Origin: an archaeon
Lineage (GTDB): Archaea > Methanobacteriota > Methanobacteria > Methanobacteriales > Methanobacteriaceae
DNA length: 40,010 nucleotides
NCBI GenBank assembly: GCA_024413395.1
Contig: JAKSUH010000002.1
Location: 1-40,010, forward strand
Direction: 5' to 3'
This document shows positions 5,327 through 10,722 of this stretch, in pieces. A program made the position numbers and the translations under genes. Positions within the stretch are counted from its first letter, which is position 1; each line of letters opens with the position of its first letter. The notes under the pieces were generated by a model. It did no database searches. It worked only from the letters and a program-made list of their open reading frames with translations, and was not told the origin of the DNA.

Positions 5327-6556
5327 TTATTTACTAATTAATACAGCAATAGTTTGAGCATCTTTAACAATATTGTTAATAACACAATATTCATTTGGAC
5401 TATGTGCAGTAGCATCAACAGTAGCCCATACTACAGGATTAAAACCTCTTTTACGAAAATCTGAAGCTACTGTTCCACCAGACATTCCTATTAATTTAGA
5501 ATCAATCCCGTGAACTTCTTTAAGAGACTGTGATAACAATTTAACAATCAAACTATTCTTATCTGTTGATGGAGATTCAACAAGCATTTTAATATCATAT
5601 GTAACTTTAACTGAAAACTCTTCTTCAAATGAATTACAAATCTCATTAACGAGGTCTAAAACATCATTTGGTGAATATTCAGGTAAAATTCTACAATCAA
5701 AGTAAAAAGTATCTTTACCAGAAATAATATTTATCCCTTCAACATTATTTTTACGCATAGTAGGTTCAAAAGTAGAAAATTTAGGGGAAAACAATTCATT
5801 TTCCTTATTAAAATGTGAACATAATTCTTGATTTAATCTTATTATAAGATGACTAGCAGCAAAACATGCATTAATACCTACATGAGGAATTGAAGCATGT
5901 CCTTGTTTACCAAATACATTAAATTCTAACCAAATTATAGATTTTTCAGCAATTGATATTGTTTCACCAAGAGAATCCCCACCATCAGGAATTAAGATTA
6001 AATCTTCCTTTTTAAAGATATCTGTATTATTTAAAAGCCATATCATACCCTTCTCACTACCATTTTCTTCATCAGAAACAAATAAAAGTTTCAATGTATG
6101 TTTAGGTTTAATTCCTAAAGAAATATATGCCCAAGCAGTAGCAAATGAAGATAGAATACCTTGTTGATTATCTTCTACACCACGACCAAATAATTTTCCA
6201 TCCTTTTGAATTACTTGAAATGGATCACTATCCCATAACTCTAAATTTCCATCAGGTACAATATCCATATGAGAAATTATCCATATAGAATAATCATCTT
6301 CTTCTCCTTCAATAGTAACTATTAAATTTGGTCTTATTTTACTTGAAACACGGCCATCAGGAATATCAATTCTTTCTAAATTACTAAAACCATGCTCTTT
6401 TAAAAAATTAGTAAGTTTAATACATTTTTTAAGTTCACCATCTCCTCCATGTTCAGGAGCAAGCGCTACTTCTGAAGTTAAAATAGATTGTAATTTGATA
6501 TATTCTTCTTGATTATTAGAAATAAAATTCTTAATCTCATTAATATTAATAGACAT
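5327..6556 (-). CDS. M20-family metallopeptidase / deacylase
   Basis: A 409-residue zinc hydrolase of the M20 family (succinyl-diaminopimelate desuccinylase / carboxypeptidase type). The first metal-binding motif is SHMDIVPDG (His96, catalytic Asp98), then GRGVEDNQQG (Asp129, bridging), the catalytic EE pair in SDEENGS (163-164), DGGD (Asp191) and a C-terminal AHSPNEY with the last His ligand. The dimerisation domain lies about residues 210-320. The substrate is uncertain; archaeal homologues are often named DapE or peptidase without proof. GGTGAAATA before the ATG is a good ribosome-binding site. It is 37 bases downstream of the kinase-like gene and could share its transcript. Confidence 0.85.
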   Translation of the reverse strand: MSININEIKNFISNNQEEYIKLQSILTSEVALAPEHGGDGELKKCIKLTNFLKEHGFSNLERIDIPDGRVSSKIRPNLIVTIEGEEDDYSIWIISHMDIVPDGNLELWDSDPFQVIQKDGKLFGRGVEDNQQGILSSFATAWAYISLGIKPKHTLKLLFVSDEENGSEKGMIWLLNNTDIFKKEDLILIPDGGDSLGETISIAEKSIIWLEFNVFGKQGHASIPHVGINACFAASHLIIRLNQELCSHFNKENELFSPKFSTFEPTMRKNNVEGINIISGKDTFYFDCRILPEYSPNDVLDLVNEICNSFEEEFSVKVTYDIKMLVESPSTDKNSLIVKLLSQSLKEVHGIDSKLIGMSGGTVASDFRKRGFNPVVWATVDATAHSPNEYCVINNIVKDAQTIAVLISK

Positions 6557-6593: not shown

Positions 6594-7283
6594 TTAGATT
6601 AAAGCTAAAACATAATATGCAACAGCAGTAATACCTGAAACAGATACATTATCTATTCCACCAGGTGAAACTGCTTCTACAATAGCTGCTAATGCTGAAA
6701 TAACTAATATTGCTGTAAAGTTAAATTTAGGAATACCTGGATATCCAATTGCAACATAAAACATCCAAATAAATACACTCATAACAGCTACAACCACAAA
6801 CATGGAAAGAGAACCTTCTAATGATTTTTCTCCACCAGAAATTTTGTATTTAATCCTACCAAATTTAGCACCGATTAATGAAGCGAATCCATCACCATAT
6901 ACAAGTGCACCTACACCTAAAGCAACAACCCAAAGGTTCTTAGAGAATACACCAAATATGACAAGTAAAATAGTCCAAACAAGTGCATAATAGAATAATC
7001 CTAAAGCATGTCCTGCATCAGTAACAGTATTTTCAATCTTAATTGGTGAATATTCAGTTAAGAAGAATACTGCTATTGTAGCAGGTAATGTAATAAATAG
7101 AATCATTACAAGTGCTTCGGAAAAGAAAGGCATTACAAAAATCATGTTTCCGACCATAATATGGACGAATTTTCTACTTAATGTAGGCCTATCTTTTAAT
7201 AATTTTTCAGCAACAATGAATATTACAACTACATAGAAGTATACTAATGCGATTAAGCCAATATCTAATCCAGTAATATTCAT
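6594..7283 (-). CDS. phytol/dolichol/farnesol-kinase-like membrane protein (Sec59/VTE5 family)
   Basis: A 229-residue protein with about seven hydrophobic segments. It carries the motifs of the polyprenol kinase / CDP-alcohol family: TLSRKFVHIMVGN at about 34-46, LVYGDGFASLIGAKFGRIKY at about 127-146, and GGEKSLEGSLSMF at about 150-162. Family members phosphorylate phytol, farnesol or dolichol, usually with CTP, at the membrane. Here the alcohol is unknown; geranylgeraniol or another archaeal isoprenoid is plausible. Its ATG overlaps the stop of the tocopherol-cyclase-like gene (ATGA), so the two proteins should be made together. Confidence 0.82.
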   Translation of the reverse strand: MNITGLDIGLIALVYFYVVVIFIVAEKLLKDRPTLSRKFVHIMVGNMIFVMPFFSEALVMILFITLPATIAVFFLTEYSPIKIENTVTDAGHALGLFYYALVWTILLVIFGVFSKNLWVVALGVGALVYGDGFASLIGAKFGRIKYKISGGEKSLEGSLSMFVVVAVMSVFIWMFYVAIGYPGIPKFNFTAILVISALAAIVEAVSPGGIDNVSVSGITAVAYYVLALI

Positions 7284-8407
7284 TCTGTTTCACCATCGTA
7301 CAAACCAAACTCACAACCAGTATTTTCGATTTTAACATGGTCTATAAGTTCACCGTTTTTCTTGAATAATTTGATTTCACCATAACCGTTGCCACCATTC
7401 CATAAACGATTATGATTTTTAGCACCATCAGGAGCTTCGTAATTAATATGTAACATTTCATCAGTTTTACAATATAAAACTAATTCCATTCTACTATTCC
7501 AGTTACTTGCATTTACATGCCAAGTATTTAATTCATCTCCTTCTTCAAAGTCGAAATCAATTTTTACATTGTTCCAAAACCTTGCAAAGTTATATTCATA
7601 CATTTTACCTTCATAATAGAATCCAATGAGTAATTTACGAGGAATTTTAATTCCAAAAGCAATTGGTTTTCCTCCACCAGCTTCAAAAGCAGAATTTTCA
7701 AGTTTTTTACCAGAAATTAAACTTGTTATATTACAACTGGAAATCCATAACCAAGGACTAGTAAAATCTTTACCCCAATTTTTATCAGAATAACCATATG
7801 ATTTTTCAGGAATTATATCATAAATTTCCCCATCACATTCAATGGTTCCTTTATACATTGTTTTAATTCCTTCTGCATGCCAAAACATATTAAAAGCATT
7901 TAATTTCCTAAATAATGCATTTGCACCATAACCTACATTGAAAGAAATTTGTTTATCAATTTCAATATCCCATTTAAAATCACCTGCATCACACATGTAT
8001 TCAGGATGATCACGTGCTTCTTGTTCAGTTACTTTACAAACTCCTTTCATATGAGTTTCAGTTAAAGAACATGGCCCTACAGTAATATTTAATTCATTAT
8101 CAGGACAATGGAAATCTTTCATTGAGTAGAAGATATGTACTTGTTTTTTGTCTTTTCCCCATGCACCTACTTTCATCATAAAGTAGGATGGTTTTTTACC
8201 AGCTTGTTTATTAGCAGGAAGTTGACCCAAAGTTGGTTCATCTTCAGCTAAAGCAGGATTACAGATAAAGTATTCAATAAAAAACTGTCTTGCTTCACCT
8301 GTTTTCCTGTTGTATCCTGTTAAAGAATGCCACCACCAGTCATAACCTAAGCTAGCGAGTGGTCCTTTTAACATATTGTAATCTCTAGTTAAATCACTTT
8401 TATTCAT
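7280..8407 (-). CDS. tocopherol cyclase-like protein
   Basis: A 375-residue soluble protein that matches tocopherol cyclases (VTE1 / cyanobacterial Slr1737) in size and motif order. Near the N-terminus, WWWHSLTGYNRKTGEARQFFIEY resembles the family's aromatic W/F...GW segment. In the middle, YGYSDKNWGKDFTSPWLWIS matches the hallmark YAEKNWG..FP.RWFWLQ. Then come AFEAGGGKPI, IGFYYEGKMYEYNF and a C-terminal IENTGCEFG. The known enzymes close a chromanol ring on a prenylated quinol by protonating a double bond; related folds hydrate carotenoids. A Methanobrevibacter-like archaeon has no known tocopherol pathway, so the substrate is open. The start has a GAGGAATAAGT ribosome-binding site. The next gene, a phytol-kinase-like protein, overlaps by four bases. 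Confidence 0.8.
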   Translation of the reverse strand: MNKSDLTRDYNMLKGPLASLGYDWWWHSLTGYNRKTGEARQFFIEYFICNPALAEDEPTLGQLPANKQAGKKPSYFMMKVGAWGKDKKQVHIFYSMKDFHCPDNELNITVGPCSLTETHMKGVCKVTEQEARDHPEYMCDAGDFKWDIEIDKQISFNVGYGANALFRKLNAFNMFWHAEGIKTMYKGTIECDGEIYDIIPEKSYGYSDKNWGKDFTSPWLWISSCNITSLISGKKLENSAFEAGGGKPIAFGIKIPRKLLIGFYYEGKMYEYNFARFWNNVKIDFDFEEGDELNTWHVNASNWNSRMELVLYCKTDEMLHINYEAPDGAKNHNRLWNGGNGYGEIKLFKKNGELIDHVKIENTGCEFGLYDGETE

Positions 8408-8503
8408 ACTTATTCCTCATATTGTATAATTTATATAAAAATTATCAATTATGTATATATATGTTATAAATCATTATAAAAAGGTATTTATTAAATAAAA
8501 AAA

Positions 8504-9706
8504 TTAATATGGTGAATTATTATCTACAACATTTTTACTTATTTTTTCATGAACTTTAGGATAAAACCCCGCCTCAGTAGAGGATTTACGAATATTTTCA
8601 ATTAATTCATTAGTTGGAATTGATGTTGGACAATTTAAAGTACATAAACCACATAAAGTACACATATATAATCCAGAATTATAGCTAGTCTCTTCATCTT
8701 CAATGAATTTACTCATAGCTACTCCACGACCACCTAAATAGTTATTAAAACCAAATTCATTTCCTACAGCATTATATACTGGGCAATGTATTAAACAATT
8801 TCCACATCCAATGCACCACAAACATTCATCTAATGCATCAGATCTACCATTATCCAATAAAATAAGAACTATTCTATGTGCTCCATACATATCTTTAAGT
8901 AATTTTTTCTCAATATCAGCTGTTTTTGAAGGTCCTGAAATAACATTAATATAACTAGTAACAAATTTACCTGTAGCAAAGACGGTTTCTAATTTTACAA
9001 GAGATATTGCATCCTCAATTGTAGGAACAATTTTATCAATACCTGCAACAATAATATGTAATTTTTTAGAGGCAACAAGAGATACATTTCCCTCATTGTG
9101 AACTATAACTGCTGAACCTTCTTCAGCTGCTAATACATTTGCACCAGAAATACCTATTTCAGATGTAGAAATTTCAGAAAGCACCTCATCTCGAACATAT
9201 TCTAAAATTTTATGATGTTCAGGTGGAAGATTAGTATCTTTTGCTTTATTGATAATATTAGCAATCGCTTTAACATCCAAATGAGATGCAGGTCCTGTTG
9301 GATGAACAGGTTTATTATCATTCTCTTTAAGTTGTAATATCCTATCTCCTAAATCTGTTTCAATAACTTCAAAACCTTTCTGAGATATAAACTTTTTAAA
9401 ATTAATTTCACCTAATGTATTAGATTTAGCTTTAGCAATCTTTTTATTATAATTATTTTTAATTAAATCATAAATCAAATTACAAGCTTCTTGATTATTT
9501 TTAGCTAATAAAACTTCAAATCCATTAGAAGTAAATGTTTGTATAGCTAATTCTTTTAGTTCTTTATTATTTTCAATAGATTCTTTTTTAAATTCTTGAA
9601 CTTTTTTTTGAAGTTTTTTAACTTTAGGTGAAGATTTTAACTGATCAGAACGTGATTTAACAGTTTTAAATGAATTCCTCATAATCTCTAATTCATTTTG
9701 ATTCAT
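8504..9706 (-). CDS. LutB-like LUD-domain protein with two [4Fe-4S] clusters
   Basis: A 400-residue protein of the lactate-utilisation LutB family. The N-terminal two thirds is a LUD domain (GISGANVLAAEEGSAVIVHNEGN is characteristic). It is followed by a dicluster ferredoxin region with CLWCIGCGNCLIHCP at about 295-309 and CTLCGLCTLNCP at about 349-360. In bacteria LutA, LutB and LutC oxidise L-lactate; here no LutC is present, so the donor is uncertain. I chose the internal ATG at 9706, preceded by GGTGATAATT, over an ATG 12 bases upstream. Its start overlaps the end of the LutA-like gene by 14 bases, implying translational coupling. Confidence 0.85.
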   Translation of the reverse strand: MNQNELEIMRNSFKTVKSRSDQLKSSPKVKKLQKKVQEFKKESIENNKELKELAIQTFTSNGFEVLLAKNNQEACNLIYDLIKNNYNKKIAKAKSNTLGEINFKKFISQKGFEVIETDLGDRILQLKENDNKPVHPTGPASHLDVKAIANIINKAKDTNLPPEHHKILEYVRDEVLSEISTSEIGISGANVLAAEEGSAVIVHNEGNVSLVASKKLHIIVAGIDKIVPTIEDAISLVKLETVFATGKFVTSYINVISGPSKTADIEKKLLKDMYGAHRIVLILLDNGRSDALDECLWCIGCGNCLIHCPVYNAVGNEFGFNNYLGGRGVAMSKFIEDEETSYNSGLYMCTLCGLCTLNCPTSIPTNELIENIRKSSTEAGFYPKVHEKISKNVVDNNSPY

Positions 9707-10364
9707 AATTATCACCATATTTAATTAAAAATTCAGTTAAATCTAAAACATCTAAATCTTCATTTTTTAAGTTTAATTTACAAAATGGACAAGCAGTAAT
9801 TAATAGTTCTGCATTGGTACTTTTAGCTTCTTCCAATCTATTTTCAGCTAAAACGTTAGCAATTTCTGGAAAAGCCGATTTTACTCCACCACCAGCACCA
9901 CAACATAATCCTTTATCTTTAATATTATCCATTTCAATTAAATTAGCTACTTTTTTAATTACATTACGAGGTTCTTCAACAATACCACAATGTCTAGATA
10001 AATGACAAGAATCATGATAAGTAACATCTAAATTAGTTTTATTTAAATTTAATTTACCCTCTTTTATTAAAGAATCTAAAAGTTGAGAGATATGAATAAC
10101 CTCTAAACCTTCATAATCTTCACTAAGAGTTTTATAACAACCTGCACAAGAAGTTAAGATAGTTTCATCTTTAAGTAAAGCAGTATTTTTATTAATTTGT
10201 TCTTTAGCTTCTTTAATAAATCCAGTTCTTAAAAGAACTGAACCACAACAGTTTTCATTATCTAAAATATGATAATCCACATTTGCTAAGTTTAATAATT
10301 CTTCAGTAGCCTTAGCAATTGAAGATTCTCTTTCACGTGCAGTACATCCTCTAAAATATATCAT
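9693..10364 (-). CDS. LutA/HdrB-like CCG-domain Fe-S protein
   Basis: About 223 residues with two CCG-type cysteine-rich domains. The first has ENCCGSVLLRTG and TSCAGCYKTL; the second has YHDSCHLSRHCG, GLCCGAGGGVK and ACPFCKLNL. These motifs bind the unusual [4Fe-4S] clusters found in heterodisulfide reductase HdrB, GlpC/GlcF and LutA. The reading frame stays open 42 bases further upstream, but the ATG at 10362-10364 has a GAGG ribosome-binding site and gives the family start MIYFRGCTAR. It pairs with the LutB-like protein and probably forms an electron-transferring oxidoreductase with it. Confidence 0.85.
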   Translation of the reverse strand: MIYFRGCTARERESSIAKATEELLNLANVDYHILDNENCCGSVLLRTGFIKEAKEQINKNTALLKDETILTSCAGCYKTLSEDYEGLEVIHISQLLDSLIKEGKLNLNKTNLDVTYHDSCHLSRHCGIVEEPRNVIKKVANLIEMDNIKDKGLCCGAGGGVKSAFPEIANVLAENRLEEAKSTNAELLITACPFCKLNLKNEDLDVLDLTEFLIKYGDNYESK

Positions 10365-10389
10365 TAAATTCCTCAATTTAAAAAAATAA

Positions 10390-10722
10390 TTATTCATCAA
10401 CTTCATTATTTAAAGCAGTTATTTTAACTACTTCATCAAGATTTCTTTGTAAATCCTCAATAATAAAGTATAATTTTGCAATAATAAACAATAAAACAAC
10501 AATGGCTGCTATAAATACAAAATCAAGCCCACGAGAGATACCTAATAACTTAGCAAAAAGACCACTTGCATCTGGAAATATTGAAAACAATATCATAAAG
10601 AGCATAGCTACAGATAAAACTATTGCACTTGATAAAGAAATTCTATGCATCTTATATCTAATAATTGCATAAATCAATACTAAAATAGCCACAATTGTAA
10701 ATAAGTAAGAATAAACAAACAT
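10390..10722 (-). CDS. DUF2304 membrane protein
   Basis: A 110-residue protein with three hydrophobic segments (about residues 2-20, 30-49 and 62-84) and a short polar C-terminal helix (EDLQRNLDEVVKITALNNEVDE). This is the DUF2304 pattern, a small membrane family usually coded next to GT2 dolichyl-phosphate sugar transferases, as here. I use the ATG at 10720-10722, preceded by AAAGGTGTAAAA; a TTG start 18 bases upstream would overlap the glycosyltransferase. Its role is unknown, but it probably anchors or assists the neighbouring transferase. Confidence 0.82.
   Translation of the reverse strand: MFVYSYLFTIVAILVLIYAIIRYKMHRISLSSAIVLSVAMLFMILFSIFPDASGLFAKLLGISRGLDFVFIAAIVVLLFIIAKLYFIIEDLQRNLDEVVKITALNNEVDE

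Follow-up and report, generated by a model that had tools for sequence, protein, structure and literature searches.

A gene of the tocopherol cyclase superfamily is coupled to a probable prenol kinase gene in gut methanogens

Two overlapping genes in a methanogen genome

The window, the whole stretch of 40,010 nucleotides analysed here from an archaeon of the Methanobacteriaceae, carries on its minus strand two overlapping genes, which we designate TocC and PhyK. The features of the locus are:

7280-8407, minus strand: TocC, first gene of the pair, 375 aa; predicted double-lipocalin protein of the Tocopherol_cycl (PF14249)/CrtC superfamily
6594-7283, minus strand: PhyK, second gene of the pair, 229 aa integral membrane protein; probable prenol (phytol/geranylgeraniol/polyprenol-type) kinase
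7280-7283, minus strand: ATGA, overlap of the TocC stop and the PhyK start, read from the sequence
7290-7294, minus strand: GGTGA, ribosome-binding-like site of PhyK inside the end of TocC, read from the sequence
8415-8418, minus strand: GAGG, ribosome-binding-like site of TocC, read from the sequence
7784-7792, minus strand: codons Tyr206-Ser207-Asp208 of TocC, counterpart of CrtC Tyr266-x-Asp268
5327-6556, minus strand: M20-family metallohydrolase gene, 37 bp downstream of the pair

An earlier reading of the DNA (hereafter the sequence-only reading) had described a VTE1-like and a VTE5-like gene that overlap by the four bases ATGA and are coupled, and both open reading frames and the overlap were confirmed. 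A 96-bp AT-rich gap (8408-8503), which contains the GAGG site, separates TocC from a LutB-like gene and may hold the TocC promoter. The M20 metallohydrolase gene is possibly cotranscribed with TocC and PhyK in the window; it is not a neighbour of the pair in the related genomes examined. At 8504-10406 of the window, the gene for a LUD-domain iron-sulphur protein (LutB/LdhH-like) overlaps that for a cysteine-rich CCG protein, and these two proteins could be a lactate or heterodisulfide-type oxidoreductase of the methanogen.

The pair is conserved and under purifying selection

Genome searches found TocC in 84 genomes of Methanobacteriaceae, 73 of which also encode PhyK. TocC was scored directly upstream of PhyK on one strand in 69 of these 73, and two more genomes bring the count to 71: G077, where the contig ends inside PhyK right after TocC, and G105, where the genes are fragmented but adjacent. 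In the two exceptions, G088 and G132, the genes lie apart and TocC is of a different type. Nearly every species of the window's genus has a TocC/PhyK overlap of 1 or 4 bases, and in the sister genus g10 a gap of ~40-230 bp separates the genes in most cases. Because short overlaps recur in nearly all pairs of the window's genus and adjacency holds in 69 of 73 genomes (71 of 73 with the two broken loci), we conclude that the ATGA overlap is not a product of chance. The pair was also found in several different genomic contexts. Pairwise dN/dS values of TocC are 0.015-0.05, indicating that the gene is strongly constrained. The pair is real and under purifying selection, and its conservation across relatives, on which the sequence-only reading had made its proposal depend, was borne out.

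The two genes also occur without each other. Methanosphaera (genus g3) has TocC and lacks PhyK. Conversely, 17 genomes carry PhyK but no TocC, including G021, which we take to be M. smithii PS, and older genera. In G073, a TocC relic of 33 residues (L070:9376-9474; 58% identity) lies directly upstream of an intact PhyK, a visible recent loss. Given these TocC-only, PhyK-only and relic genomes, TocC has been lost repeatedly and is able to work without PhyK. Separately, TocC of G026 (L063:9055-10122), presumably M. ruminantium M1, is frameshifted near the C-terminus, which may reflect an altered protein end or a sequencing error.

TocC belongs to a distinct long subfamily with a predicted double-lipocalin fold

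In a Pfam profile search TocC matched PF14249 (Tocopherol_cycl; E 3.6e-11, 43.2 bits, with a cut-off of 26.6 bits) in an alignment that spans residues 165-368, the C-terminal half only. The family is also matched by 65 of the 65 TocC relatives tested (E up to 1). A profile-profile comparison with the canonical short archaeal members, to which TocC is ~22% identical, aligned the KxWG and W.W motifs (E 1.5e-5, probability 79.6%). At 375 aa and with YDWWWH and LWNGG motifs, TocC represents a distinct longer subfamily, found in Firmicutes and gut methanogens. Methanobacterium-like genomes (L067:9318-10304, L068 and L069) carry a different, canonical PF14249 protein of 323-328 aa.

An AlphaFold model of TocC built on a 65-sequence alignment reached a pLDDT of 91.6 and a pTM of 0.91; a model made without the alignment (pLDDT 34.6) was useless. 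Foldseek searches with the aligned model gave AttH (2ICH) as the best match (E 4e-11, probability 1.00), with a probability of 1.00 also for pericyclases (Fsa2 7E5T and 7DMN) and for 25-phosphosteroid lyase (25-PSL; 9G2I, 9G4C and 9FZN), all at TM-scores of ~0.5. As modelled, TocC consists of two lipocalin-like barrels and falls in the double-lipocalin group of CrtC, AttH and VTE1. The Pfam, AlphaFold and Foldseek results therefore agree in placing it inside the tocopherol cyclase/CrtC-like fold to which it had been assigned by eye. For TocC, the name "tocopherol cyclase" denotes the superfamily and no more. Searches of solved structures by sequence returned nothing significant; matches to archaellin and HPPD from that search were judged to be chance.

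Residues essential in carotenoid hydratase have counterparts in TocC

Mutation of His239, Trp241, Tyr266, Asp268, Trp283 or Trp285 in CrtC strongly reduces or abolishes activity, Asp268 has been proposed to protonate the prenyl double bond, and free terpenes, geranylgeraniol included, are hydrated by the enzyme (PMC4717167, PMC12402844). Tyr206, Asp208, Trp219, Trp221 and Trp176 of TocC are invariant in 65 relatives, and His177 is kept in 64 of the 65. The spacing of Tyr206-x-Asp208 is identical to that of CrtC Tyr266-x-Asp268. Trp176/His177, ~30 residues upstream, are counterparts of CrtC His239/Trp241, and Trp219-x-Trp221 is the counterpart of CrtC Trp283-x-Trp285. This correspondence is one of motif and spacing, not of structural superposition, and it is inexact: the Trp-x-Trp lies at +11/+13 from the Asp in TocC but at +15/+17 in CrtC, and the order of His and Trp differs. 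Canonical PF14249 members show the corresponding pattern as Y-x-E....W.W. Because the counterparts of CrtC-essential residues are invariant, the hydration or cyclisation of an isoprenoid proposed in the sequence-only reading is plausible for TocC; the reaction itself is a matter of what we infer.

PhyK is probably a prenol kinase

The PhyK of the window matched no family in Pfam and NCBIfam searches, and only one of 18 relatives reaches CTP_transf_1 (E 0.012). The motifs RKF.HIM.GN, YGDG.A..IG and KS.EGS..M are nonetheless kept across the 18 relatives, and we take RK..H, YGDG.A...G and KS..GS to be motifs of the prenol-kinase/CTP-transferase superfamily. A bacterial relative from Lacrimispora algidixylanolytica is fused to DUF92 in one protein (L200:694-2139). 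DUF92 is the family of the phytyl-phosphate kinase VTE6, and this VTE6-type fusion suggests the sequential phosphorylation of a prenol. A search of 14 methanogen genomes found a DUF92 gene in 12 of them. Judging from its motifs, PhyK is probably a prenol kinase. Its narrower identification as a phytol kinase gains from the motifs and from the DUF92 fusion of its relative, and has against it the lack of a curated family match.

Older neighbours of PhyK point to isoprenoid metabolism. The gene adjoins that for a thymidylate-kinase-like P-loop kinase in several genera, and in two related genera a UbiA gene of geranylgeranylglycerol-phosphate type. The thymidylate-kinase-like neighbour is present in many Methanobacteriaceae (L103:8325-8885, L104, L106-L111, L114 and L101). 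It scores 59.5 bits, below the dTMP kinase cut-off of 83.25 bits, and could be a second prenyl-phosphate kinase.

TocC is of bacterial origin and was gained at least twice

TocC orthologues in Methanobrevibacter and Methanosphaera mostly share 74-80% identity, and those in Firmicutes share 50-64%. The best non-archaeal matches come mostly from Firmicutes, at 50-63% identity. TocC relatives are encoded at no fewer than 535 candidate loci of the genome collection, many of them from rumen and gut organisms; none was found in viral contigs or plasmids. Phylogenetic analysis recovered a main archaeal TocC clade (14 rows, support 100/100) and placed four other archaeal sequences in separate, well-supported positions among bacteria. 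Forcing the TocC of G071 into the main archaeal clade was rejected (AU p 2.8e-7). TocC is thus a bacterial gene, mainly of Firmicutes, that gut methanogens gained at least twice.

The second-clade TocC lies directly before PhyK in both G071 and G077. PhyK of G071 retains its ancestral TMK-like neighbour, which marks the site as the ancestral locus of PhyK. The second TocC beside PhyK therefore represents repeated assembly, or in-place replacement, of the same gene pair. In Fusibacter, a PhyK relative is followed after 10 bp by a canonical PF14249 protein, the only linkage to PhyK in ~60 bacterial PF14249 loci checked; we regard it as a third case of pairing, single but supportive. Bacterial TocC usually stands alone: comparison of bacterial neighbourhoods revealed no shared partner, and PhyK was not detectable in several TocC-bearing bacteria. 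At L112:3426-4955, the second TocC type adjoins an M20 hydrolase gene that reads as an ASCH-domain fusion; the contig contains N runs, and the fusion may be an artefact of them.

TocC-only and PhyK-only genomes argue against a fixed two-step pathway. The sequence-only reading had likened the pair to VTE1 and VTE5 acting in one pathway. For the pair as a whole this is too strong, as TocC occurs without PhyK in Methanosphaera and most bacteria and PhyK without TocC in several methanogens.

Tocopherol and quinone chemistry is very unlikely in these methanogens

Exactly one UbiA gene was present in each of the 11 Methanobrevibacter and Methanosphaera genomes in which the family was found (G000 and ten others). 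G000 is only 75% complete, so the argument is carried by its complete relatives. For G071, whose assembly is fragmented, no UbiA gene was detected. Methanobacterium-like genomes with a canonical PF14249 protein have four or five UbiA genes. The single UbiA is the prenyltransferase that archaeol synthesis requires, so no further enzyme of this type is evident that could serve tocopherol or quinone synthesis. A tocopherol cyclase of the VTE1 kind would act on a prenylated hydroquinone, and making one would take a second UbiA-type prenyltransferase. Tocopherol or quinone chemistry is accordingly very unlikely, and the earlier remark that these organisms have no known pathway of this kind agrees with its apparent absence from the 11 genomes.

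TocC as a true tocopherol (or plastochromanol) cyclase, with PhyK as a phytol kinase in a plant-like synthesis of vitamin E, could draw on the Pfam name and on the label already in print for a Methanobrevibacter ruminantium protein (PMC7772410). It has against it the single UbiA per genome where the family was found, with no homogentisate prenyltransferase evident, and the position of TocC in a distinct long subfamily ~22% identical to canonical archaeal members. Formation of the tocopherol head group moreover requires the O2-dependent HPPD, and the hosts are strict anaerobes. We rejected vitamin E synthesis on the single UbiA gene and consider it exceedingly improbable.

Possible roles of the pair

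We favour, at somewhat short of an even chance, the reading that TocC is an isoprenoid hydratase or cyclase that shares a substrate with the coupled prenol kinase PhyK. Here we infer the chemistry and its substrate, the order in which the two steps occur and the kinase activity of PhyK. TocC, an enzyme with the CrtC/tocopherol-cyclase fold, would act on isoprenoids by acid catalysis and without a cofactor. Asp208, aided by Tyr206 and the Trp/His cluster, would donate a proton to an isolated double bond of a prenyl chain; the resulting cation would then react either with water, giving hydration, or with an internal nucleophile, closing a ring. The membrane protein PhyK would phosphorylate an isoprenoid alcohol, and TocC would consume or produce this alcohol or its phosphate. 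In gut methanogens such a pathway would serve to modify or salvage a prenol, be it geranylgeraniol, phytol or a polyprenol. We counted for this reading the PF14249 match, the high-confidence model with its Foldseek matches, the CrtC residue counterparts and the use of geranylgeraniol by CrtC, together with adjacency in 71 of 73 genomes, the 1- or 4-base overlaps in the window's genus, the second TocC before PhyK, the Fusibacter pair, the dN/dS values, the single UbiA gene per genome where found and the UbiA-PhyK neighbours. We counted against it Methanosphaera without PhyK, the separated genes of G088 and G132, solitary TocC in bacteria and its rare linkage there, a likeness to CrtC by motif and spacing with shifted Trp-x-Trp and a different His/Trp order, the TM-scores of ~0.5, and a fold that also houses pericyclases and a phosphate lyase.

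The main mechanistic rival is a kinase-lyase pair, in which PhyK would phosphorylate an isoprenoid alcohol and TocC would remove the phosphate again by elimination, so that a double bond results. The net reaction would be a nucleotide-dependent dehydration, as with 25-hydroxysteroid kinase and 25-PSL. The pairing of TocC with a kinase gene is direct, 25-PSL is among the best fold matches of TocC (probability 1.00), a weak profile match to it covers the D.+.WG motif, and a two-step scheme in which kinase and C-O lyase are distinct enzymes is established in S. denitrificans (PMC8449060). Sequence similarity between TocC and 25-PSL is, however, not significant (E 0.65), and the CrtC-like Tyr-x-Asp retained in TocC is replaced by Ser-Arg-Asp in the lyase. 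Relatives of PhyK are described as acting on primary prenols, not tertiary alcohols, and Methanosphaera and most bacteria have TocC without PhyK. We judge this rival unlikely.

The main biological rival, to which we give a slightly better but still low chance, is that the two proteins act independently and are merely co-expressed, with TocC alone acting on some other hydrophobic molecule, such as an isoprenoid or phenolic that plants bring into the gut. That TocC is solitary in Methanosphaera and in many Firmicutes of the rumen and gut would fit, as would the many TocC matches from rumen and gut organisms and the varied chemistry of the fold, pericyclases included. Yet the tight overlap is kept across dozens of species and several genomic contexts, and a second, independent TocC sits beside PhyK, as does a canonical family member in Fusibacter. 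TocC might instead have no enzymatic activity and serve, in the manner of a lipocalin, to carry a hydrophobic prenol to PhyK, the kinase in the membrane. Its lipocalin-like fold and membrane partner are consistent with this, but the invariant acid, aromatic and histidine positions fit a catalytic set and the characterised double-barrel relatives examined are enzymes; we think such a role quite improbable.

The hydratase/cyclase reading can be extended, with rather more doubt, to an undescribed isoprenoid-modifying pathway: a bacterial CrtC-fold enzyme, twice paired with a resident archaeal prenol kinase, would give a hydrated or cyclised isoprenoid (a hydroxylated lipid, a lipid carrier or a salvaged dietary prenol) unrecognised in Methanobrevibacter. 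That the pair makes a new lipid or redox compound, as suggested earlier, is hypothetical. Hydroxyarchaeol is one possibility, and we found no report of it in these genera in the open literature. The chief methanogens in the guts of ruminants and people are Methanobrevibacter and Methanosphaera, which build their membranes and lipid carriers only from isoprenoids. A pair that modifies or salvages isoprenoids would, if true, bear on how membranes are composed, on how dietary phytol and other prenols are used, and on lipid biomarkers. With a bacterial gene gained repeatedly beside the same archaeal kinase, the vague "tocopherol cyclase" label becomes a testable two-protein hypothesis, one that also gives access to the large Firmicutes branch of PF14249, so far uncharacterised.

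Comparison with known systems

TocC resembles VTE1 and the prokaryotic members of PF14249 in its family match, its [DE]K[DN]WG....P..W.W motif and its double-lipocalin fold; it differs in forming a longer, separate subfamily (relative to the canonical archaeal members compared) and in having hosts that appear to lack a prenylquinol pathway. CrtC, whose substrates are prenyl chains, shares the superfamily fold, and its catalytic residues have, by motif and spacing, invariant counterparts in TocC, but no significant sequence similarity between the two was found. We know of no carotenoid pathway or carotenoids in these methanogens. In the 25-hydroxysteroid kinase/25-PSL system an alcohol kinase and a double-lipocalin enzyme act one after the other on the side chain of an isoprenoid, as TocC and PhyK may; TocC is only marginally similar in sequence. 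No lyase candidate lies near the 25-hydroxysteroid kinase gene of S. denitrificans (PMC8449060). AttH and the lipocalin-like Diels-Alderases (Fsa2 and the Phm7-type pericyclase) are the best fold matches, but share ~10% identity with TocC, and the substrates of the Fsa2/Phm7-type enzymes are fungal polyketide-type. PhyK has the membrane topology and motifs of the phytol and farnesol kinases (VTE5 and FOLK) and is tied to DUF92 (VTE6) by the bacterial fusion and by a DUF92 gene in most of these methanogens, but differs in that the methanogen protein lacks a curated family match. The "tocopherol cyclase" label for a Methanobrevibacter protein is already in print; new are the findings that the two genes are coupled, that this coupling arose repeatedly, that TocC shows the pattern of catalytic-residue counterparts, and that no second prenyltransferase is evident.
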